Part shown: positions 3,689-32,732 of the stretch, one piece after another
Position numbering within the stretch: the first letter of the stretch is position 1
Layout: the number at the start of each line of letters is the position of its first letter
NCBI GenBank assembly: GCA_000531095.1
Contig: HG799466.1
Location: 88,970-152,969 of the forward strand
Direction: 5' to 3'
DNA: 64,000 bases
DNA from: Gemmata massiliana
GTDB lineage: Bacteria > Planctomycetota > Planctomycetia > Gemmatales > Gemmataceae
Position numbers and translations under genes: made by a program
The notes under the pieces: model-generated
Databases searched by the model: none
The model's input: the letters and a program-made list of their open reading frames with translations, nothing else
Told to the model about the DNA's origin: nothing

Positions 3689-4312
3689 CTACACGGGCGG
3701 GGTCGGTTCGGGCACGCTCCCCTTACGAAAGTACACGCTCACGCGCCACGCCACGAACCCCACGGCGACCACGGCCAGCACGACCCACGCCGCGTGCCCG
3801 AGCCGGTTCTGCATCGCTTCCCAGGCGTGCCCCGCGAAGTGACCGACGAGTGCCATCGCCACCGCCCATACGAGCGCCCCGGCCGCGTTTGCAGGGAGGA
3901 ACCGCCCCCAGCGCATCCCGGACGCGCCCGCGGCCGGTCCCGCGATCACACGCAGCCCCGTAATGAACCGCGCGATGAATACCGTGAGCGTGCCGTACTT
4001 CGCGAAGTACCGCTCCGCGATCTTCATGCGCTCGGGGGTGAGGAACAGGAACCGGCGCCCGGCGTCGAGGCGCCGGCGCGCGACCCGGCGCCCCAACCAG
4101 AAACCCAGGTTGTCACCCGCGACCGCCGCGACGAACGCAACCGCCACCACCGCCCAAAGGTGGAGGTGCGCGCCCCCTTCCGGGCTGGTGAGGTACCCTG
4201 CGGCCAGAAGCGCGGTCTCGCCGGGCACCGGTATCCCGGCGTTCTCCAGCAGCACAACAAGCCCGAGCACCCAATACCCGTGACCGCGGACCAGTGCAAC
4301 GATGTCCGGCAT
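3689..4312 (-). CDS. DedA family membrane protein
   Basis: A 207-residue integral membrane protein of the SNARE-associated/DedA (VTT) family, some members of which flip lipid carriers such as undecaprenyl phosphate. Diagnostic stretches are ENAGIPVPGET near residue 23, GDNLGFWLGRR near 66, and FIARFITGLRVIAGPAAGASGM around residues 112-133 (F-x-x-R-x-x-x-x-x-R...G). Five or more hydrophobic segments are visible. The ATG at 4312 has a good Shine-Dalgarno (GGAGGAAG) directly upstream; the longer frame's 26 extra codons were rejected. The neighbours are unrelated, so the specific cargo is unknown. Confidence 0.9.
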   Translation of the reverse strand: MPDIVALVRGHGYWVLGLVVLLENAGIPVPGETALLAAGYLTSPEGGAHLHLWAVVAVAFVAAVAGDNLGFWLGRRVARRRLDAGRRFLFLTPERMKIAERYFAKYGTLTVFIARFITGLRVIAGPAAGASGMRWGRFLPANAAGALVWAVAMALVGHFAGHAWEAMQNRLGHAAWVVLAVVAVGFVAWRVSVYFRKGSVPEPTPPV

Positions 4313-4765
4313 GACTTCCTCCACGCACCCGAGCACGCGGAGAACAGAATGGAAACCGCGTGCCAACCACAATGGTCGGCACGTTACCAAGACTTGCGAG
4401 GTAAAGGTTACAACTTACACGCCTAGCGCCTCAAAAGTTCAAACCGCGAAAACGCTGGGAATCACAGACGTTCGCACCCATCGAACGCTGAAAGTGAGCT
4501 TTGGCACACCGCGTGCTTTTCTCTTTGTCGACGAACACGAGTCGGGCCGAACTTCCCCCCGGCCCACCCCACATACCAGATTGCATTTCAATCAACCTAT
4601 CCACGAGAGCCGGCGACTTCGGTCGTCGGCTTCATCTTTTTTGTGCCTCCGAATCCGCCCATAACGAGCGGTCGGAGCATCCCATCGGTGAATCGGAATC
4701 CCGAAAATAAACGAGCACGCGCGAACGCGACCGGGAACTATGGGGTTGAGGAGGCATACGCACAC
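4313..4765. other. 453-bp divergent intergenic region
   Basis: The gap separates the divergent dedA and sigma-factor genes. I see no convincing coding frame, tRNA or strong hairpin. It is somewhat less GC-rich than its surroundings (for example 4390-4480) and must hold the promoters of both flanking genes. An AGGAGG box at about 4749-4754 precedes the sigma-factor start at 4766. Confidence 0.5.
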
Positions 4766-23634: not shown

Positions 23635-25716
23635 TCACTTCGGAATCGGTTCTACTCCGCCAATCGCCTCAAGTTCGGCGATTCCCGCTCGCAAGAGTTT
23701 CAACCGTTCTCGATCGTTCTGCGCAGAAGTCGCGGACTTGAGCAGATCAGCGATCATGCGCCGCGTCTTCAGGTCGCGTGCCCCCTTCTCGATTGTGTTG
23801 AGTGCCTTCGTGAGCCATTCCGACGCAGTACCCGGCGAGTTGGGGAACTTTTGCTCCAGTACGTCCGCGTGGTTGGCCACCAGTTTCGCGACCGACTTGA
23901 TCCGGCCGGAATCTGTTCGCACCGAGTCGCTGAACGCGGTTGCGGCCTTGGTGTCATCACCCAACCCCAAAAACGCGCGGGCCAATCCTTCGCGTGCGTC
24001 GGTGTCCGCGGGGTACACATCCAGAACTCGCTCCAGATCCCCGCGTGCCTTACGAAAATCCTTCGTGCCAATCGCGAGTACAGCCCGGCGGACCAGAACG
24101 TCGCGGTGAAACGGTCCCTTCTCAACGGCCGTATCGAGTTCCGCTAATGCCGCTTCTGGCTCGAACATGCGCGCCCGACAGAGACGCGCTTCCACACAAC
24201 TGGCGTCGAGCATCACCGCGTGATCGCAGTCGCGTTTCGCTTCTGCGAACCGCCCCGCAGACCGGTGGTGTTCCGCCCGCAGACCGAATCCGCGGGCAAG
24301 TAATCGCGCTTGGTGAGCGGGGATGGATTCAATGCAGGCGAGCAAGCCGGTTAGCGTGCGCGCGGGACGATCACGCAACGCGACATCCAGAAACGCTCGA
24401 ATCTCGTCCGTTGTTGCAGCATACCCGACTTGCTGCGCCCCTTCGCGCGATGCCAGCGCCCCGACCAGTTCCCCGCGAACATTCACCAGCGGCCCGCCCG
24501 GAGAGCCCGCCTGAGCAGGCAACTGCCCCACGAGCACGTTCACCGCAGGGGCCTTCTCGCCGACATCCAGCGTCACGCGCCCGCGCTGCCGAACGGAGCC
24601 GTTAGCGTACACCCACGCGAACTCCAACCCGCCGGGGTGACTCATCGCGTGGAGCGCATCGCCCGGCTTCGGCACGCGGGCCGCAAGCGAGAGCGGTTTC
24701 ATGTGGTCCGAACCGGAATCGAGTCGAATGAGGGCCAGATCGCGTGTCGCGTCGCGTGCGAGAACGACACCGCTGCGATACGCGGCGCGAAGGTGCAGCG
24801 CGAGTGGGTCGCGATACGCACCGCGCTCGCTCACCCAACGATCACCATCGCGCAGCGGAAGGGCCACGCCGACACGATCCATCACGGTCAGTCCGCGCGC
24901 GCATGTGAGGACAAGGTCTTTCTCGATCAGCGCGCCAGCCATGTGAACGTCAGTCGCCGTGGGCCGAATCCACACGGTCGCCCGCGTGAGCGCCTCGGCA
25001 ATCACGACTGGTTCAGCGTCCCGGACCTGCTTCGGGGGTGCATTCAGGAAGGTCCGGATGTCACTCGCCGAGATCACGATAGCCGCGAGCGGACATGCTC
25101 GGCGCAATGCGCAATCCATGCCAACGACTTCACCGCGCGCGTTGAACACCGGTCCGCCGGAATCGCCCTCGTCCGTGGAGAATTGAGCCACAAGCGCGCT
25201 CGCCCCCAGCGCGAGTTTCTTCCCGCGCCAGAAGTATCCGTCCGAGAGTTTGCCGCTCGTGCGCAGTGGGCCGACGGTCGTGTTCCAGATCGTATCGATG
25301 TCGATCCGGTGCCCGATCACGCGAAGCCAATCGCCCGTTTGCGGTACTCGTGCCGAAAATACAACGGCTTTCGCACCTTTGGGAAGTGATTCAAGCTCCA
25401 CGAGTGCGAGGTCGAATTCGTCCGAAGTTTTCAGCACCATGCCCGAAACGAATAACCCGCTTTCGCGAAGCTTCGGTCGGTTACGAAGGTACTCGCGCCG
25501 GTCCGTAACGAGTTCCCCGTCACGGTACCAGGGGAGGAACACATCGACTTTCTTGCGGTCCGCGACGACGTGCCGACAGGTGACGAGCAGGCGCTTCTGG
25601 ACGTCAACGACGAACCCGCTCCCCGCACCGTCGTTCTCCGCACGCACCCACGCGCACGACGCCAACGGATCATTTACCGACGCCGTACCGAGAACGAATG
25701 TAAGTGCGAGTAGCAT
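23635..25716 (-). CDS. Tandem trypsin-like protease with TPR tail; second domain lacks His
   Basis: A 693-residue secreted or membrane-bound protein (hydrophobic N-terminus 1-18). The first trypsin-like domain (about 20-230) has the triad His49 (TCRHVV), Asp102 (FDLALVE) and Ser186 (GDSGGP). A second, homologous domain (about 235-440) keeps Asp326 (RDLALIR) and Ser405 (GSPGGP), but the His position is Arg274 (LTCARGL), so it should be inactive. The C-terminal 230 residues are TPR-like helices (AEAKRDCDHAVMLDAS, FRKARGDLERVLDVYP). It may be a periplasmic quality-control protease with scaffold function. The start at 25716 was chosen to exclude a 76-codon extension encoded by a tandem repeat. 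The HEAT-AKR gene is upstream on the same strand. Confidence 0.85.
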   Translation of the reverse strand: MLLALTFVLGTASVNDPLASCAWVRAENDGAGSGFVVDVQKRLLVTCRHVVADRKKVDVFLPWYRDGELVTDRREYLRNRPKLRESGLFVSGMVLKTSDEFDLALVELESLPKGAKAVVFSARVPQTGDWLRVIGHRIDIDTIWNTTVGPLRTSGKLSDGYFWRGKKLALGASALVAQFSTDEGDSGGPVFNARGEVVGMDCALRRACPLAAIVISASDIRTFLNAPPKQVRDAEPVVIAEALTRATVWIRPTATDVHMAGALIEKDLVLTCARGLTVMDRVGVALPLRDGDRWVSERGAYRDPLALHLRAAYRSGVVLARDATRDLALIRLDSGSDHMKPLSLAARVPKPGDALHAMSHPGGLEFAWVYANGSVRQRGRVTLDVGEKAPAVNVLVGQLPAQAGSPGGPLVNVRGELVGALASREGAQQVGYAATTDEIRAFLDVALRDRPARTLTGLLACIESIPAHQARLLARGFGLRAEHHRSAGRFAEAKRDCDHAVMLDASCVEARLCRARMFEPEAALAELDTAVEKGPFHRDVLVRRAVLAIGTKDFRKARGDLERVLDVYPADTDAREGLARAFLGLGDDTKAATAFSDSVRTDSGRIKSVAKLVANHADVLEQKFPNSPGTASEWLTKALNTIEKGARDLKTRRMIADLLKSATSAQNDRERLKLLRAGIAELEAIGGVEPIPK

Positions 25717-25767
25717 GCGTTCCAGAGTAACCGATGGAGTGTCTGTGGCACACGTGTTCTCGAACCA

Positions 25768-25848
25768 CTCTGCTCTCGGTCTTCTGCCCTCTGCTCTCGG
25801 TCTTCTGCCCTCTGCTCTCGGTCTTCTGCCCTCTGCTCTCGGTCTTCT
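25768..25848. repeat. Tandem repeat, 21-bp unit, about four copies
   Basis: Four head-to-tail copies with exact 21-bp period (unit CTCTGCTCTCGGTCTTCTGCC); the last copy is degenerate. It is followed by a TTTGTGCTCTTTGTGCCTTTTTGTGG stretch of another common intergenic repeat type (words TTTGTGC repeated). It lies between the stop of the HEAT-AKR gene and the start of the protease gene. A reading frame runs through it as (R)PRAEGR repeats, but I treat that as non-coding. Confidence 0.85.
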
Positions 25849-25889
25849 TTTGTGCTCTTTGTGCCTTTTTGTGGCCAATCCGTCTTTCT

Positions 25890-27974
25890 TCACACTTCTG
25901 CGCGGACCGTCTTGCGGAAGATCGTGTCTTCGCGGTACATCCACTCACCGCGTTTGAGCAGTCGTTCGCGCACGTCGTCGGGCAGTTCCGGATTGCGAAG
26001 TGCGTCGAGGTTCTCTTCCAGGTATTCCATCGTTGACGGTGCTGTGAAGCACGCCGACACGCCGGGCGTGTTCAGTGTGTACCGGAAGCAATCACTCGGA
26101 CGGAACGACGGATCGAGCAACCGGCCGTAGCACGTGTTGTTGAACGTGAAGATCGACGTGCCGCGTTCTTGCGCGAATGGGAATACTTCGGTTTCTGCTT
26201 TCCGGTGTGCGGCGCTGTGGCGCACCATGACCGGGTTCCAACCCTCAAGAATCGCGTCGCGGGCGATCCCGCGGTTGTGAGTCGAAAGCCCGAACACTTG
26301 CACCAGACCGTCCCGTTTGAGTGCTTCGAGTTCCTCGAGCACGTCGGGTGTGATCCGGCGCCACGACTGCGTCCAGAAGATCAGGAAGATGCTGAGGCGC
26401 TCCAGTTTCATATTGCGTAGCGCACGCTCCACGTCTTTGCGGATCTTCGCCGGGTCCGCCTCGAAGGTGCCCACTAGCATGTGAACCCCGCGCCGGTCGC
26501 TCGGCGAGAGCCGCGTCATGAACCGCGTGAGCGTGGCGTAGTTCGGCTCCCAGAAGAACAGGTTCACCCCCTGCTCCGCCGCCCGCACGTACCCCTCTAC
26601 GGGCAAGCCGTAGTGCCCGGACACGCCGAGGGGCGATACGATCGGCCCACCGGGTCCAATTTGTCGCGGGCGCACGAGCGTAATTGGCAGCAAAGCCAGC
26701 GGTTCCGCGGCCACACGCGGAGTTGCGGGCGGCTTCCAGGATGTTTCGGGTGCGAGTTTCCACACCGGAACGCGGCACATCTTCGCGGCTCGCGATAGCA
26801 CAAACCAGGACGTTTCAAGCGTGGGAGTTTCGACCAGTTCTTTAGCACGATCAGGCGTCAGTGCCGCTGCGCGTGCGTGCGGGTGATCCGGAGTAAATGG
26901 CGGCGCGACGTAAAGGTTCGATGGAGAAATGTCGGACTTCAGTCGCTCCAATTCCGCGCGGACGTCTTCCGCGGGAAACGCTTCACCCGCCTGCGCCGCG
27001 GCCCACACGTGTGCAGTTGTCTGAGAGTATCCCGGAAGCGTTTCCAGTAAGGGCAAAAGTGTTGCCGGACGGCACAGAATAAACTTCGCAACTTCTTCAA
27101 TGCGATCGAGTTCGACGCCGCGTGTGAGTGCATCGAGCACGGGTGCGGTGTCCTCACGCGGGTCGCCGAGCGAGCCGATTGCCCCCTCCCATTGCTCCGG
27201 GGTACCGTCTTCACGCAGCGCGAGAATCACCCATGCTCGAACGCGCTCATCGGGGTGGTTCACGAGGCGAACGAGCGTGTTGAGCACGGCGCGTCGACCG
27301 ATCTGGCCGAGCAGTTCCAGGTTCCGCGCGAGTACCGCGGGATCCCAGTCCCAGAACGGGCACCACGATTGCGGATCGTTCGTGGTTCGCTCGGCGGGTA
27401 CATCGCCCGTCCAGCTATAGAGCAGGTAGTCGCAGAGTCGGGTCGCGTGTGGTGCGGGGGTGAGTAGAAGACCGAGCACACGTTCCCGGTTACCCAGATC
27501 GCGCCCCCATTCTTCGAGCCACTGTCCGAGTGCGTAACGCACCCGCCAGTGCGGATCGTTCGATGCGGGTACCAACAGTTCGCGTTGCTCACCTTCAGCC
27601 AGTGCGTTCACAGCCGCCCGGCGCACCTGCCAAAACGGGTCCGTGGTAAGCAGCCGAACCAGTTCCCGACTCGTGCCGGGGACCATCTTTCGCCGAACCA
27701 ACTCGCCCGCGGCCAGAATCCGAATACTCGGGTGCGGGCTACTTAGTGCGCGCACAATCGCATCGCGCACGATCGATGAATCATCATTTTCGAGGCTCCG
27801 AACCGCCGCGCTCGCTGCAGTCGCGCTCGTTTCGCGGTTCAGCAGCAGTTCGACCAACCCCTCCCGTTCGGTCACTTCTGTTGTGCCCCGAAACGACTCG
27901 GCCGCGGCCGTGTTCAGGTCCGGGTCGAGCAGGGTGTAGGTGCGGGCCAGTGGGTGATCGTTTGGAACGCGCAT
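25890..27974 (-). CDS. HEAT-repeat protein fused to a degenerate aldo/keto-reductase-like barrel
   Basis: A 694-residue cytosolic protein. Residues 30-360 are HEAT repeats (DDSSIVRDAIVRALSSPHPSIRILAAGEL, DPFWQVRRAAVNAL, DERVRAWVILAL). Residues 440-690 resemble an aldo/keto reductase: SPLGVSGHYGLP, then EPNYA where the family's catalytic Tyr sits, and a late VSACFTAPSTMEYLEENLDAL similar to the AKR nucleotide loop. The catalytic Asp, Lys and His positions are not conserved (FFWEPNYA, LVGTF, IFLIFW), so normal reductase activity is doubtful. Divergent from the reverse transcriptase gene with only 70 bp between starts, so they may share control. The ATG at 27974 was chosen; 68 upstream codons overlap the RT start region. 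Confidence 0.75.
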   Translation of the reverse strand: MRVPNDHPLARTYTLLDPDLNTAAAESFRGTTEVTEREGLVELLLNRETSATAASAAVRSLENDDSSIVRDAIVRALSSPHPSIRILAAGELVRRKMVPGTSRELVRLLTTDPFWQVRRAAVNALAEGEQRELLVPASNDPHWRVRYALGQWLEEWGRDLGNRERVLGLLLTPAPHATRLCDYLLYSWTGDVPAERTTNDPQSWCPFWDWDPAVLARNLELLGQIGRRAVLNTLVRLVNHPDERVRAWVILALREDGTPEQWEGAIGSLGDPREDTAPVLDALTRGVELDRIEEVAKFILCRPATLLPLLETLPGYSQTTAHVWAAAQAGEAFPAEDVRAELERLKSDISPSNLYVAPPFTPDHPHARAAALTPDRAKELVETPTLETSWFVLSRAAKMCRVPVWKLAPETSWKPPATPRVAAEPLALLPITLVRPRQIGPGGPIVSPLGVSGHYGLPVEGYVRAAEQGVNLFFWEPNYATLTRFMTRLSPSDRRGVHMLVGTFEADPAKIRKDVERALRNMKLERLSIFLIFWTQSWRRITPDVLEELEALKRDGLVQVFGLSTHNRGIARDAILEGWNPVMVRHSAAHRKAETEVFPFAQERGTSIFTFNNTCYGRLLDPSFRPSDCFRYTLNTPGVSACFTAPSTMEYLEENLDALRNPELPDDVRERLLKRGEWMYREDTIFRKTVRAEV

Positions 27975-28044
27975 CGGTGCTTGAGATATTGCGAGGAGTG
28001 GGCTACCTTCTATGCACTTATCGAGGGTACGAAGAGGATTCGCA

Positions 28045-29592
28045 ATGTCCGCTCCACGATCCGCCCCGGCGTGGCTGCTCCTGCCACTACCCGCGAACGC
28101 GGACGCCGACGCCGGCCTGATCGCGACCATCGAACAGCACTGCGCTAAGTTACCCGGAACGTTCAAGGCGCTCCACACCGCACTCGATCGGGTTCGTGCC
28201 CTCGCGAGTTACGAACCGGCCGTGAACCGGGCGAACGAGCTGATTTGGACGCAATTCGACGCGCTCCTCGAAGCCCCCGACAAAAAGGCCCGACTCGAAT
28301 TCGTTCGCTACGCCCGCGAGCACCTGCCGGAGCGCGCCTGCGCCCGCGTGCTCCGGCGCCTGGCGAAAGACGCGGACATGGAAGTGCGCCGGACCGTGAT
28401 CCGGGCCGTGCGCAAAGCGAAAATCGAAGAAGTCGCCGTCCCCACCCAGAAGGACGGCGACTGGAACCCGACGGGGTGGCTCCTCCCGAGCGAGGAGTTG
28501 AAGATCACCCGGCACAAGCCCGGCACGCGCACCCAGGAACGTAGCGGAGTGCCGATCCTCGGCAAACTCAAGGACGTGCGGAAGCTACTGAACATCAAAT
28601 CACCGAACCAGCTCGGGTTCTTCCTGCTCGCGAGCGATCATAATAACGGCCCGTACAGCACGCACACGATTCCCAAACGCGACGGCACCGACCGGATGAT
28701 TTGCGCCCCCAAGAAACAGTTGAAGTGGGTGCAGAAGCAGATTCTGAAGCACATTTTGAGCAAGATTCCGCCGCACCCGGCCGCGCACGGGTTCGTCAAC
28801 GGGCGCTCCACCGTGAGCAACGCGACGCCCCACGTCGGCGCGGAACTGATCGTAAAATTTGACCTCAAGGACTTCTTCCCCACGATCCACTACTTCCGCG
28901 TGATGGGGCTGTTCGCGAGCCTCGGGTACCCGGTCGATAATTGCATGTTTGGTACGAAGGACGAAGCCAAACAGGTCGCCCCTGTACTCGCGCGCCTGTG
29001 CTGTTACACGCCCGACCCCACGCAATGGGGCACCGCGACGCTCCCGCAAGGCGCGCCCACCTCCCCCGCGATCTCGAACCTCGTGTGCCGGCGGCTCGAC
29101 GCGCGCCTTACGGGTTTGGCCAAAGCCAATAAGGGCACGTTCACGCGCTACGCGGACGACCTCACCTTTTCGTTCCCGAATGCCGAGGGACTGAAACTCG
29201 GGCGGTTCCGCTGGTGGGTGGATCAACTGTGTCAGCACGAAGGGTTCGTGGTGAACCAGGAGAAGTTCCGCGTTATTCGCGACTCCCAGCGCCAGGTGGT
29301 GACCGGGATCGTGGTGAACGACGCCCTCCGGGTGCCGCGTGAACTGCGGCGCGAGTTGCGTGCGATCCTCCACAACTGCGCGACGCACGACATCGAATCG
29401 CAAGCGAAGCGGCACCCGAAGTTCAACGGCAACGTCGCGGCGTTCACGCAATACCTGCGCGGGATCGCGGCTTACTTGAACATGGTGCAACCCGAGCAAG
29501 GTGGTGCCCTGCTCCGCCGCGTCAACGAGTTACTCGGCGGACCGATCGGTGACAGCGACGAAACACCGGACGCGAAAGCGGGTGACGAATGA
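28045..29592 (+). CDS. Retron-type reverse transcriptase with HEAT-like N-terminal extension
   Basis: A 515-residue RNA-directed DNA polymerase. The RT domain covers about 185-450: NATPH at 259-263 (the retron NAxxH element), catalytic FDLKDFFP with Asp273, QGAPTSP at 335-341, YADD at 369-372 and VTG at 419-421 (the retron VTG element). The first 180 residues include helical HEAT-like text (RVLRRLAKDADMEVRRTVIRAV, 101-122), an unusual extension. DGR polymerases usually have SQ rather than SP in the Q-G motif, which argues against that class. The ATG at 28045 has AGAGGA upstream. The stop overlaps the start of a SUMF1 protein (ATGA), so the two are translationally coupled. I see no msr-msd-like region in the 70 bp upstream. 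It could be an uncharacterised retron-like or defence RT. Confidence 0.88.
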   Translation: MSAPRSAPAWLLLPLPANADADAGLIATIEQHCAKLPGTFKALHTALDRVRALASYEPAVNRANELIWTQFDALLEAPDKKARLEFVRYAREHLPERACARVLRRLAKDADMEVRRTVIRAVRKAKIEEVAVPTQKDGDWNPTGWLLPSEELKITRHKPGTRTQERSGVPILGKLKDVRKLLNIKSPNQLGFFLLASDHNNGPYSTHTIPKRDGTDRMICAPKKQLKWVQKQILKHILSKIPPHPAAHGFVNGRSTVSNATPHVGAELIVKFDLKDFFPTIHYFRVMGLFASLGYPVDNCMFGTKDEAKQVAPVLARLCCYTPDPTQWGTATLPQGAPTSPAISNLVCRRLDARLTGLAKANKGTFTRYADDLTFSFPNAEGLKLGRFRWWVDQLCQHEGFVVNQEKFRVIRDSQRQVVTGIVVNDALRVPRELRRELRAILHNCATHDIESQAKRHPKFNGNVAAFTQYLRGIAAYLNMVQPEQGGALLRRVNELLGGPIGDSDETPDAKAGDE

Positions 29593-30566
29593 AACCCGAC
29601 GACGAAGACGAAACCCCGAGCACGGACGACGGTGCGCAGTTCCCGTCCGCGAAGGCCATCGGCGAACTGGAAGCTCTCACCAAGAAGAAAGCGAGCGCGG
29701 CCCGTGCGCTCGCGGCTTGGAAGATCGTCACCGCAGCGTCCACCAATTCCGACGCGCACGCGGTCATGGATTTCGCACGCGACCACGAACTGGTCCAGCC
29801 GTGTGAGCACACCGACCCCACGACGCGCGCGAACCTGAGCTGGGTGAACCCGATCGACGGCTCCCAGATGATCTGGATACCCGCGGGCAAATTCACTTAC
29901 GGCACGGGGGGCGAATCCGCCTACTGCGCCGGGTTCTCACTCGCGCGGTGGCCGGTCACCAACGAACAGTACGCTCAATTCATCGCCGAAACCGGCTACG
30001 AGCCGGATCAGGCGCACCCGGACTACGACGCCTACCTCTCGAACTGGACCAGCACCGGCCCGCCCAAAGGTAAGGAGAAGCACCCGGTCACGTTCGTGTC
30101 GCTGTTCGATACGTTCGCGTACTGCAAGTGGGCCGGGCTGATAATCCCGACGGAGTGGATGTGGGAGAAGGCCGCACGCGGAACCGACGGGCGGCCGTAT
30201 CCGTGGGGTACGGGAGCGTCCGGGAACAAGAAACTCGCGCACGTAGAAGCCGCCTCTACGTGCGAGGTGGGCAAGTTCTCACACGTCCGCTCGCCTTACG
30301 GCTGCGAGGAGCTAACCGGGAATGTCTCGGAGTGGTGCCAGCCGGCGGCGCCGAAAGCCGCGATCGGCGATTTCCCTCCCCTGAACCCGGTCGTTTCGGT
30401 CCCCGGCCCCAGCGAAACAGTTGAGACGGGCGTTCGTGGGGCGTGCTACCTGCGCACATCGGCAGAATCGATGAAGAGCAACCACCGCCGGAACCTCTCG
30501 GTCGCTCGGCGCAACCAGTGGGTTGGCTTCCGTCCCGCGTGTGTGCTCCCTGTGCGTCCGGCTTAA
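29589..30566 (+). CDS. SUMF1/FGE-fold protein coupled to the reverse transcriptase
   Basis: A 325-residue protein. An acidic N-terminal helical part (1-75) is followed by a SUMF1 (formylglycine-generating enzyme, C-type-lectin-like) domain at about 88-318: MIWIPAGKFTYGTG, RWPVTNEQYAQFI, PTEWMWEKAARGTDGRPYPWG, ELTGNVSEWC and a final RRNQWVGFRPA. True FGEs have a cysteine pair after R-G-G-S; here the sequence is RGACYLRTSAESMKSNHRR, without the pair, so oxidase activity is unlikely and ligand binding is more plausible. The start codon overlaps the RT stop by four bases. DGR target proteins often use this fold, but I find no second copy of the C-terminal segment nearby. It ends just before a palindromic repeat and a convergent gene. 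Confidence 0.88.
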   Translation: MKPDDEDETPSTDDGAQFPSAKAIGELEALTKKKASAARALAAWKIVTAASTNSDAHAVMDFARDHELVQPCEHTDPTTRANLSWVNPIDGSQMIWIPAGKFTYGTGGESAYCAGFSLARWPVTNEQYAQFIAETGYEPDQAHPDYDAYLSNWTSTGPPKGKEKHPVTFVSLFDTFAYCKWAGLIIPTEWMWEKAARGTDGRPYPWGTGASGNKKLAHVEAASTCEVGKFSHVRSPYGCEELTGNVSEWCQPAAPKAAIGDFPPLNPVVSVPGPSETVETGVRGACYLRTSAESMKSNHRRNLSVARRNQWVGFRPACVLPVRPA

Positions 30567-30575
30567 AAGTTCCCC

Positions 30576-30659
30576 ATTCCAGAGTTCCAAGTTCCAGCAG
30601 TTCCAAACCTGAAGCGCCGTACTTCGTTTTTTGGAACTCTGGAACTTGGAACTGCTGGA
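30576..30659. repeat. Inverted repeat of TTCCAAGTTCCAG family between convergent genes
   Basis: Arms of about 29 bp at 30576-30604 and 30631-30659, built from TTCCAGAGTTCCAAGTTCC and TTCCAGCAG words. A related element is at 63139-63233. It lies between the SUMF1 gene and the convergent PQQ gene; the hairpin with the T6 stretch near 30626-30631 may terminate rightward transcripts. Confidence 0.8.
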
Positions 30660-30675
30660 ACTCAAGTGTTCCGGT

Positions 30676-32004
30676 TCACTTCTCTTCGATGCAGTACAGG
30701 TACTTTTCGCCGCGCAAGAACAACTGTTTGCCCACCGCGACGGGCGAAGCATCAATGAGATCGTTGAGCTTGTTCACCGACAGGACGTCCACACTGTCGC
30801 CCGCCTTGAGCACCACTGTTGCCCCGTTACGGTCGACGAAATACACGCGACCCGCAGCCGTGATCGGCGAAGCGTAGAAGCTCCTCACGGTTGGGAGTTG
30901 CTCCTTCTCGACAATGGCCTTACCCGTTTTCGCGTCGAGCACGGTGAGTAGTGCGTCGTTCGCTTGAGTGAAGTAGAGGGAGTCGCCGACGAGAACCGGC
31001 GACGGCACGTAGGGCGTCCCGGCCGGGTAGCGCCAGTTCACTTTGCCCTTCGTGCCGAGGTCGCCGGTGGACGCGAGCGGCACGGAGAGAGCCATGTACC
31101 CTCGATACCCGCTCACGCAGATGACCGAATCGCCGAATTTTACCGGGGACGGGATCGGGTTCACGGTCATGCCGGCACATTCCCAGATGACCGCACCCGT
31201 CGCCAAATCGTAGCTGCGAACGCGCGTCGTGCCGTTCGTAATTACTTGTGTCTTCCCGCCGTGTTCGACGACATAGGGCGTCGACCAGGTGGTCTTCTCT
31301 TCGCGCTTCACCACCCACTTCGTTTTGCCGGTGGCCGTATCGAGGCAATGCAATTTGGAGTCTGCCTCCTGGTCGAAGTTCAGGAGCAGCGCGTCCCCGT
31401 GTACGACCGGCGTGACGGCCTCGCCCCACCCGAGCCGCGTGTGCATGCGCCCCAAATCCGTGCGTTCCCACTTCACGTTGCCGTCGAAGTCCAGGCAGTA
31501 CGTTCCGAACGACCCGAACGACACGTACAAGAACTTGCCGTCGGTGGTAGGCGAACCAGCCGCGTAGGAGTGCGTCGCGTGGTGCCCCTCGTGCGGAACC
31601 ATTTCGGCAACGAGCTTCTCCCACAGTTTCTTGCCGCTAGTTCGATCAAAGCACATTACGAAAAACTTGTGGAAGTTCGTCGGCGGATCGGTCTTCACGT
31701 CGAATCGTGTGTCCGGCTTGGGCATCTCTTCGGGCTTCGCCTTGCGATCGGTCTTCACCGCGGTCAGCACGAACACGCGGTCGCCCCAGACGATCGGCGT
31801 GGCCGACCCGCGCCCGGTCAGTTCCGCCTTCCACGAAATGTTGGTCTTCGCGTCCCACTTCACGGGCGGATTCGCCCGCGGAGCGGAGCCGTCGGCGTTC
31901 GGCCCGCGCCAGTGGTGCCAGTTCTGTTCCTTCTCTTTCTCGAAGTCCGCGGCGCGAACGGTCGGGACCGACAGAATCAGAGCGATTGCAGCGAAACGGT
32001 ACAC
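30676..32004 (-). CDS. Secreted PQQ-type beta-propeller protein
   Basis: A 442-residue periplasmic protein with a signal peptide (1-18, TVRA-A) and a quinoprotein-like beta-propeller. Typical blades are NWHHWRGPNADGSAP near the N-terminus, RTSGKKLWEKL, DFDGNVKWER, DTATGKTKWVV, DLATGAVIWECAGM and DAKTGKAIVEK, each with the (D/N)-x-x-T-G-x-x-x-W pattern. In planctomycetes such proteins are abundant; whether PQQ is bound is uncertain because no dehydrogenase calcium/Asp motif stands out. A GTG start at 32004 has the strong GGAGG box. It is a single gene. Confidence 0.88.
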   Translation of the reverse strand: MYRFAAIALILSVPTVRAADFEKEKEQNWHHWRGPNADGSAPRANPPVKWDAKTNISWKAELTGRGSATPIVWGDRVFVLTAVKTDRKAKPEEMPKPDTRFDVKTDPPTNFHKFFVMCFDRTSGKKLWEKLVAEMVPHEGHHATHSYAAGSPTTDGKFLYVSFGSFGTYCLDFDGNVKWERTDLGRMHTRLGWGEAVTPVVHGDALLLNFDQEADSKLHCLDTATGKTKWVVKREEKTTWSTPYVVEHGGKTQVITNGTTRVRSYDLATGAVIWECAGMTVNPIPSPVKFGDSVICVSGYRGYMALSVPLASTGDLGTKGKVNWRYPAGTPYVPSPVLVGDSLYFTQANDALLTVLDAKTGKAIVEKEQLPTVRSFYASPITAAGRVYFVDRNGATVVLKAGDSVDVLSVNKLNDLIDASPVAVGKQLFLRGEKYLYCIEEK

Positions 32005-32056
32005 GTGAACCTCCGGTTAGGAGCCGGTGCGACTTAGTGGGAGTGTACGCGAGTGC

Positions 32057-32581
32057 TCAGTGGCGAGAAAGGTACGCGAGCGCCCGGCTCACGCAATCTT
32101 CAAATGAAAGCGCGCCGGTATCGAGCGTGAGTCGCGGAACGGTGAGCGGTACGGCCGCGGCCCTCACGCCCGCGTACATCTCCGGCGTGCGGTTCCCCGC
32201 GGGGTGCGTACCCGCGCGGTGGTCCACTTCGAGCCGAGCACGGGCCACCGTATCTGAGCATGCGCACTCAATAACCTGAAGCGGCTGGTTGAGCGATCCG
32301 GCCAGGGCGATTGGTGCGTCGAGTTGTCCCAGTTTGCTGAACGTGCGCCCGTCGAGAAAGACGGCGCGCCCCGGATCGGCCCTGAGAATGTAGTCGGCCG
32401 CACGGTACACCGCGGACATCGCGATTTCGTCCTGCGCGGCCGAATAATCGAGCACACTTGGTGCAAAGAGTGCGGCCCGAACCACATCCTTGCTCAGCAC
32501 CACACCACCGAGAGCCTCTGCAAGACGTGAGGCGAGCGTACTTTTCCCACTACCGGGCAAGCCGGCCATTGCAATCAGCAC
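32057..32581 (-). CDS. P-loop kinase-like ATPase (AAA_33 type)
   Basis: A 174-residue small P-loop protein. Walker A is GLPGSGKST near residue 7, then LSKDVVRAALF (the substrate-binding segment of zeta-toxin/adenylylsulfate-kinase-like enzymes) and AVFLDGRTFSK as the Walker B-like strand. The family phosphorylates small molecules or nucleotides; the substrate is unknown. The frame starts with GTG at 32581; a downstream ATG (32569) would delete the first strand, so the GTG is preferred. It follows the PQQ gene's start by 52 bp on the same strand, but a shared promoter is not evident. Confidence 0.8.
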   Translation of the reverse strand: MLIAMAGLPGSGKSTLASRLAEALGGVVLSKDVVRAALFAPSVLDYSAAQDEIAMSAVYRAADYILRADPGRAVFLDGRTFSKLGQLDAPIALAGSLNQPLQVIECACSDTVARARLEVDHRAGTHPAGNRTPEMYAGVRAAAVPLTVPRLTLDTGALSFEDCVSRALAYLSRH

Positions 32582-32732
32582 CCCGCGTCCTCGCGTGAAT
32601 CCACAGCTCCCGCAGGTCGAAGCCGACCGTGCCTAATCAGAGACGGTTCACTCCGCCCAGAAATTTCCTCAAAATCCGAGCAGAGTACAGATCGGGTGTC
32701 AGACTGCGAGATTGCTGTGTTTCGTGATGTGC

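Follow-up and report, generated by a model that had tools for sequence, protein, structure and literature searches.

A retron-lineage reverse transcriptase of Gemmata massiliana, its SUMF1-fold and HEAT-AKR partners, and a multi-copy family of candidate template RNAs

The 64,000-nucleotide stretch of the Gemmata massiliana genome analysed here (GenBank assembly GCA_000531095.1, contig HG799466.1, positions 88,970 to 152,969; hereafter the window) carries a reverse transcriptase (RT) gene of the retron lineage, which is followed by a gene for a protein of the SUMF1/FGE-sulfatase fold and faces, across a short divergent region, a gene encoding HEAT repeats joined to an aldo/keto-reductase-like domain (HEAT-AKR) (Table 1). 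Pfam assigns RVT_1 (3.7e-19) to the RT and FGE-sulfatase (2.7e-34) to the SUMF1 protein, with HEAT and Aldo_ket_red in the divergent gene, and the coordinates of the open reading frames (ORFs) confirm the layout given in the initial annotation of this DNA, where RT and SUMF1 were joined by an ATGA overlap and HEAT-AKR started divergently at 70 bp. We propose, with a probability of roughly 0.72, that the RT and its partners are the protein half of a multi-template retron, whose RNA half is a multi-copy family.

The RT contains the motifs NAxxH (residues 259-263), QGAPTSP (335-341), YADD (369-372) and VTG (419-421). An alignment of 19 RTs (18 family loci plus the distant relative G065; G, L and C numbers are our handles for genomes, loci and contigs) bears out the retron elements recognised earlier, with NAxxH and YADD kept in all 19 sequences and VTG in 18. 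The top PADLOC model for the RT is RT_XIII (1.5e-106), and the best 25 of the 55 matching models are all named for retrons; "type XIII" is used here as in these model names. The top three NCBIfam models are retron models, followed by group II and DRT models, and the closest solved chains are those of the retron Ec86 RT (6e-40), with group II intron RTs scoring much worse (about 1e-3). A tree of RT domains was built from the 79 sequences that remained of up to 86 candidates after removal of short, internal-stop, no-match and identical sequences (L134, a split E. coli RT, is not among them); in it the window lineage and G065 form one clade (19/19, support 0.98), on a poorly supported backbone (parent support 0.007) with the type XIII markers scattered over the tree. 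The models put the RT in the retron lineage, and the tree, a check that had been suggested, gives it a clade of its own. The HEAT-like character claimed for the N-terminus stands as a suggestion only: HEAT_2 matches at 24.1 bits against a cut-off of 27.7, and a low-confidence predicted model is helical across residues 41-123.

Conservation was scored in a family set of 95 genomes (at most 15 RT, 12 HEAT-AKR, 23 SUMF1 and 32 RNA candidates per genome). An RT match was found in 52 of them and the full-length window clade in 18, at 55-100% identity from the N-terminus on; three RT rows bearing a stop flag are frames open up to their own end. HEAT-AKR was detected in 18 genomes at E 1e-20 (in G410 as a fragment at a contig end only) and SUMF1 in 18 at E 1e-30. 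When the lists were compared by hand, the three proteins occupied the identical 18 genomes, none of them being found in the other 77, and presence and absence are also concordant within five mixed genera (15 genomes with and 20 without, by hand count; these genomes are related and not independent). Because the RT-SUMF1 pair is found again in relatives whose RT is as little as 51% identical, and neither the RT clade nor SUMF1 was found without the other in the 95 genomes, the pairing is not due to chance; its conservation among relatives, proposed by the initial annotation as a check, was found and extends to HEAT-AKR.

The RT and SUMF1 genes overlap by four bases in 14 of the 18 loci (ATGA in 10, GTGA in 4), the exceptions being L069, where SUMF1 has moved behind HEAT-AKR, L071 and L072, which have gaps, and L079, which has an inserted palindrome and SUMF1 in two frames. 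In 15 of the 18 loci the divergent neighbour is HEAT-AKR; this gene lies elsewhere in G479 and G441, and is not reached by the RT contig of G410. In the 19 neighbourhoods retrieved (6.5-20 kb; ORFs of at least 90 amino acids, alternative frames set aside), every other gene is confined to 7 or fewer. A PQQ gene lies near the SUMF1 gene in the window and five relatives, and housekeeping-like neighbours occur in several relatives (no systematic defence-island test was made). Across the phylum, an RT match was obtained in 111 of 392 genomes (three candidates scored in each), and the only near-full-length match besides that of the window's own genome was G065 (residues 26-499, about 40-44% identity), where HEAT-AKR lies upstream of the RT on the same strand. 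Among plasmid and phage records, 158 and 55 matched, respectively, none of which covers 80% of the query in one place.

In several type XIII loci, retron-like non-coding RNAs (ncRNAs) are seen ahead of the RT gene and often ahead of the SWIM gene too, and they served as a clue for finding the RNA of the window lineage. A motif match beside the unlinked HEAT-AKR gene of G479 consists of three tandem retron-like RNAs, and a scan for TAGC, a hairpin and a1/a2 ends located RNAs directly 3' of HEAT-AKR, on the RT strand, in L071, L074, L077 and L079 (13 rows in all, of which three are plain palindromes, in L069 and on both strands of L077, and two are L088 repeated as L127). Two RNA copies fold at z-scores of -8.1 and -6.7. 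A covariance model, R1, built from nine copies gave 37 matches below E 1e-6 in the loci of relatives, 32 of them distinct (two loci occur twice in the set) and nine being the training copies. The R1 RNA has the anatomy by which a retron RNA is recognised, with complementary a1/a2 ends, an AGC-type branch site in its TAGCG start, an msr hairpin (GCGGCG-loop-CGCCGC), a variable msd hairpin and a 3' AGTAGC; its consensus comprises cggAGtTAGCG, CTGCGGCGtTACGCCGcGG, atGGTT, GTGCC and, at the 3' end, Gga.GaaAGTAGC.

The structure was examined in 91 copies from 40 fetched loci (E up to 1e-4), which include some from the RT-negative genomes G403, G408, G416 and G421 and a few weak ones outside the 115 counted below. 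In an alignment fitted to the R1 model, and with related copies counted separately, 94.5% of the cells are paired versus 76.5% after shuffling, 251 cells versus 79 are changed on both sides, and covariation amounts to 0.474 versus 0.165 shuffled and 0.04-0.11 slid. In a swap control free of this model bias, applied to the 85 copies that had the regex msr core, the longest a1/a2 run is 12.5 within the own copy versus 7.8 when swapped and 7.4 when shuffled, the swapped 95th percentile being attained by 55 copies; the corresponding values for the msd arms are 8.5 and 5.9 (57 of 85 copies). A TAnnnT box is present at -25 to -8 of 32 of the 43 array or singleton starts, versus 6.2 in shuffled sequence.

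Grouped at a spacing of less than 250 bases, the 91 copies form 43 groups, namely 17 arrays of 2-8 copies and 26 singles, and 42 of 48 tandem spacers measure 60 bases or less. Comparison of msr and msd, which 79 of the 85 copies entered, showed paralogues of the same locus (98 pairs) to be 76% identical in msr and 53% in msd, versus 49% for shuffled msd. The copies of the window's genome (G000) are 92-100% identical in msd to their best match in G400 in 6 of 6 compared, and 58-98% identical to their best matches in G402; an array lying between the same genes has four copies in G000 versus eight in G400, at 99% RT identity. The msd sequences thus differ between copies, each is kept in close relatives, and array size varies. 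Folding of the msd beats mononucleotide shuffles (mean z -2.85; 70% below -2). Captured phage sequence was looked for with two 20-base msd words and one 25-base msr word, which had no exact match in viral_contigs, a weak negative.

R1 RNAs were found in 22 of the 95 genomes, in at least 115 copies, and in all 18 RT-positive genomes, with 1-11 copies found in each. By RT status, they occur in 4 of the 34 genomes whose RT match is of another clade, whereas the 43 genomes with no RT match yielded none, and a specificity control on 383 further phylum genomes (stricter filters, with 8 candidates per genome) was negative as well. An R1 RNA lies beside HEAT-AKR in 10 of the 18 (G409, G410, G413, G420, G423, G435, G441, G442, G479 and G483). 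In G000 the RT is on C5, apart from a four-copy array on C6 and single copies on C3 and C7 (55-107 bits), and two weaker copies on C1 (41 and 31 bits) are without the TAGCG motif. Among the RT-negative carriers, G408 (12 copies) is 82% complete, G416 68%, G421 69% and G403 (four copies) 100%. Neither the RT clade nor SUMF1 nor HEAT-AKR was found in G403, whose RNAs we read as orphan templates, relics, or templates used by another RT.

No single ncRNA was found in the RT operon; the window is without an R1 copy (best score 13.3 bits, E 0.56). The 70-bp upstream gap is too short for an msr-msd like those found, which are about 150 nt long, and it contains a promoter-like element, two spaced hexamers that may form a promoter. 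Downstream, one relative (L067) has 30 bp between SUMF1 and the convergent gene. An ncRNA hidden in the genes was rejected, as no stretch under strong constraint emerged from the synonymous change in 12 RT, 11 SUMF1 and 10 HEAT-AKR sequences (lowest per-window ratio 0.68). Rfam gave no match to the window at gathering, and its 10 matches up to E 0.5 on seven array loci are all below gathering, none lying on an array copy.

Other repeats and RNAs were recorded as well (Table 1). Tandem units lie directly behind the 3' end of HEAT-AKR in the window, at the position where relatives hold the ncRNA array, and an inverted repeat lies between the convergent SUMF1 and PQQ genes. Palindromic insertions sit between HEAT-AKR and RT, or RT and SUMF1, in three relatives. 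G065 has a single retron-like RNA between HEAT-AKR and RT, which possibly represents the ancestral one-template arrangement. Some type XIII-like loci carry two different ncRNAs each, the first preceding the SWIM gene and the second the RT. A second RT group consists of L112, L118 and L120, of which L112 was scanned as RT_XIII with SWIM_XIII and the other two are near it in the tree; no obvious msr-msd lies ahead of the RT in these three loci, and a long palindrome is found there in L112 and L118.

Table 1. Coordinates of the features discussed; entries without a locus or contig prefix are window positions.
Feature	Location	Strand	Remark
HEAT-AKR gene	25890-27974	-	HEAT repeats and aldo/keto-reductase-like domain (Pfam)
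Divergent region between HEAT-AKR and RT	27975-28044		70 bp between both starts
Hexamers TTGAGA and TACCTT, putative promoter	27981-27986 and 28004-28009		upstream of RT; 17-bp spacer; similar in close relatives
RT gene, retron lineage	28045-29592	+	515 amino acids
RT N-terminal extension	about residues 1-165		predicted helical, HEAT-like
NAxxH	28819-28833	+	retron motif in RT
VTG	29299-29307	+	retron motif in RT
SUMF1/FGE-sulfatase-fold gene	29589-30566	+	325 amino acids; ATGA overlap with RT
Tandem repeat	25768-25869		21-bp unit (CTCTGCTCTCGGTCTTCTGCC), four in tandem, last copy partial
Inverted repeat	30568-30653		TTCCAAGTTCCAG-like units
R1 array, window's genome	C6:521084-521806		four copies
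R1 single copies, window's genome	C3:320079; C7:296844		
R1 copies of G403	C258:11958-12110; C62:56686-57000; C230:18784-18915		
Retron-like RNA of G065	L081:2675-2850		GGGGCGCCA...TGGCGCCCC ends; z -5.2
Paired ncRNAs of type XIII-like loci	L113:1555-1814, 4073-4332; L115:1489-1748, 4087-4346; L117:1527-1786, 4068-4327; L123:1588-1847, 4173-4432		
Palindromic insertions	L069 2516-2740; L070 8686-8942; L079 just below 8310		GGGCGGAAGCCC-like or CACACGGAGTGTGCC-like repeats

FGS (SUMF1-fold) domains have been proposed as binding effectors in bacterial conflict systems, planctomycetes included, and inactive enzymes as possible decoys in such systems, in the sections of PMC7159879 that treat them. 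The window's SUMF1 protein has this fold by sequence, with matches to CalU17, ToxD, EgtB and FGE. Catalysis by the formylglycine-generating enzyme (FGE) uses a CxxxxC cysteine pair; such a pair is missing from the C-terminus of the window protein (after residue 280) and none is conserved across the family alignment, as the initial annotation had noted for the FGE cysteines, so that binding appears likelier than chemistry. Aldo/keto reductases (AKRs) have a catalytic Asp-Tyr-Lys-His tetrad and usually the motif FFDTA..Y. In HEAT-AKR, a Phe is aligned to the His of IHW in 3n2t and FFWEPNY stands at the place of the usual motif; the domain is probably without the catalytic Asp and, because of these replacements, looks catalytically dead. 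Both partner proteins are well conserved. A HEAT-AKR profile matched 9 of 384 phylum genomes, namely the window's own, G065 and seven in the AKR part only.

The usual view of a retron is that of a single RT with a single ncRNA and an effector. On the basis of anatomy, co-occurrence and linkage, we infer that the R1 RNAs are tied to the window RT and would be copied by it. One RT would recognise the shared msr carried by several ncRNA genes per genome; these genes stand singly or in closely spaced tandem arrays, and a -10-like box precedes most of the groups. If it behaved like the known retrons, the RT would start synthesis at the G of TAGC and reverse-transcribe the msd, and the cell would hold several different multicopy single-stranded DNAs (msDNAs) in one kind of RT-RNA-DNA particle. 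SUMF1 and HEAT-AKR may sit on this particle, with the HEAT repeats as a scaffold; the AKR and SUMF1 folds, which both seem to lack catalysis, would serve for binding and would be silenced by, or sensed through, the msDNAs. The system would most likely act in phage defence of the retron kind, this being the leading candidate function at about even odds. In a fuller form, for which we consider the chances balanced, it would be a "repertoire retron": one RT with an expandable, array-borne ncRNA library of constant msr and unrelated, individually maintained msd hairpins, each msDNA serving as a separate bait or sensor that is read out via the HEAT/pseudo-AKR and SUMF1-fold proteins, and with turnover by array expansion, loss and dispersal.

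The literature searched, whose coverage was partial, yielded no multi-ncRNA retron and, in line with the initial annotation, no retron with a SUMF1 partner. The new RT system suggested there holds good as a conserved set of retron-type RT, SUMF1 and HEAT-AKR; it is not an RT class entirely of its own, since the type XIII model of PADLOC is the one nearest to the RT. The suggestion did not include the multi-copy family of retron-like template RNAs encoded elsewhere, nor the apparently dead state of the AKR.

Several observations weigh against a multi-template retron. In the window's genome and seven other RT-positive genomes the R1 RNAs are near none of the three genes, so that the link between RNA and locus rests on relatives and on co-occurrence, and R1 RNAs are present in 4 of the 77 RT-negative genomes (G408, G416, G421 and G403). 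Genome size may confound the association, the RT-positive genomes being large at 6.5-11.6 Mb; large RT-negative genomes without R1 RNA are G397 (12.4 Mb), G485 (10.1 Mb) and G480 (9.0 Mb). Absences and copy counts are not exhaustive, because a limited number of candidates was scored per genome. In thirty of the 85 copies the a1/a2 run stays below the 95th percentile of the swapped control, the RNA of G065 is not recognised by R1 (12.7 bits), and no SUMF1 gene was seen on the short contig of that genome. None of the three NCBIfam retron models that match the RT attains its cut-off, and the AlphaFold models of RT and SUMF1, built from two-sequence alignments, are poor (mean pLDDT, the predicted local distance difference test, 46.8 and 34.0). 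Neither partner has a recognised toxic activity, and relatives of the AKR part in seven other phylum genomes (L142-L148, open frames of 275-547 amino acids) are without a HEAT match.

The locus could instead be an ordinary, divergent type XIII retron whose usual partners were lost or moved, with SUMF1 and HEAT-AKR as incidental neighbours, as the best-scoring RT model, the similar msr hairpins of type XIII and R1 RNAs, and a weak match of HEAT-AKR to HEAT-ARM_XIII (4e-7 across 168 residues, perhaps no more than the likeness common to HEAT repeats) would allow. However, RT_XIII scores the window RT at 355 bits, its most distant family relative at 348 and G065 at 399, against 480-562 for four other family RTs; SWIM_XIII neighbours (604 and 623 bits) stand at the two other RT loci scanned for them, L111 and L112, both in the window's own genome (the ORF of L113, L115 and L123 starts like that of L111), and no SWIM gene is among the shared neighbours in the 19 neighbourhoods of the window lineage. 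R1 scores one type XIII ncRNA of the own genome at 18.6 bits only. Weakened by the co-occurrence of SUMF1 and HEAT-AKR with the RT clade (18/18 versus 0/77), this explanation is quite improbable. Far less probable still is a diversity-generating retroelement (DGR), in which the RT would diversify the SUMF1/C-type-lectin-fold protein. FGE-sulfatase is named a common DGR target domain in the relevant parts of PMC8934634 and PMC7159879, and the profile hits of SUMF1 include the DGR protein TvpA (3.9e-7), with FGE and EgtB chains ranking higher. Against this, PADLOC and NCBIfam place the RT in the retron and not the DGR class, no direct repeat resembling a template repeat/variable repeat (TR/VR) pair occurs in 25600-32600 (a distant TR was not searched for), no additional gene is conserved among ORFs of at least 90 amino acids, and SUMF1 is 96% identical in the nearest relative, and thus not hypervariable, compared with 99% for the RT and 94% for HEAT-AKR. 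With the wrong RT class and no TR/VR with adenine-specific differences near the locus, a DGR was rejected; the initial annotation had likewise argued against it.

The remaining alternatives concern the RNAs and the function. The arrays may be another structured repeat common in large genomes of the family, REP-like or a regulatory RNA, or may serve another RT; they are unlinked to the three genes in 8 of 18 genomes, G403 holds R1 copies without the RT clade, and family genomes carry other palindromic repeats and RTs. The retron-like anatomy, with covarying a1/a2 ends and a variable msd, the position next to HEAT-AKR in more than half of the RT-positive genomes, and the near-restriction to these genomes speak against it, and we regard it as improbable. 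A further possibility accepts the multi-template retron and gives it a role in host regulation, the decoys or sensors being directed at proteins of the cell itself, in place of phage defence. The shared chromosomal setting in several species (the PQQ gene near SUMF1), the conservation of msd across orthologous copies and the lack of a toxin-like partner would fit such a role; patchy presence within genera and the change in array size between G000 and G400 would suit a conflict role, and retrons are described as defence systems in the literature. We therefore consider host regulation unlikely, though it is a serious contender.

If the multi-template retron is real, msDNA can form a repertoire, a single RT being served by as many as a dozen distinct templates that are conserved one by one, and the system would offer natural multiplexed production of msDNA, which could help in editing several sites at once. 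The specification carried by the msd hairpin would become testable, since the msd varies naturally while RT, msr and partners stay. The SUMF1 fold and an apparently dead AKR would join the proteins tied to reverse transcription.

Compared with known systems, the FGS domains of conflict systems share a fold that has been proposed as a binding effector there too; those treated in the consulted part of PMC7159879 are either components of vWA-MoxR, iSTAND or GTPase systems or targets of DGRs, and none is paired with a retron RT. DGRs with FGE/C-type-lectin targets also have an RT gene beside a gene of the same fold, but the window RT is of a different class, no TR/VR lies nearby and no hypervariation was seen. 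Retron Ec86 is alike in its RT core with NAxxH and VTG (6e-40). Its RNA anatomy of a1/a2 ends, branch-G motif and msr and msd hairpins is shared by the R1 RNAs. Whereas Ec86 has a single ncRNA next to its RT and an effector of another kind, the window lineage has an N-terminal helical RT extension and, putatively, a repertoire of ncRNAs. Closest is retron type XIII, loci of which occur in the same genome and which shares the nearest RT model, a similar msr hairpin and possibly a HEAT-repeat partner; where type XIII has a SWIM partner, the window lineage has the SUMF1-fold and HEAT/pseudo-AKR proteins and a lower RT score, and its putative ncRNA lies away from the RT in many different copies.

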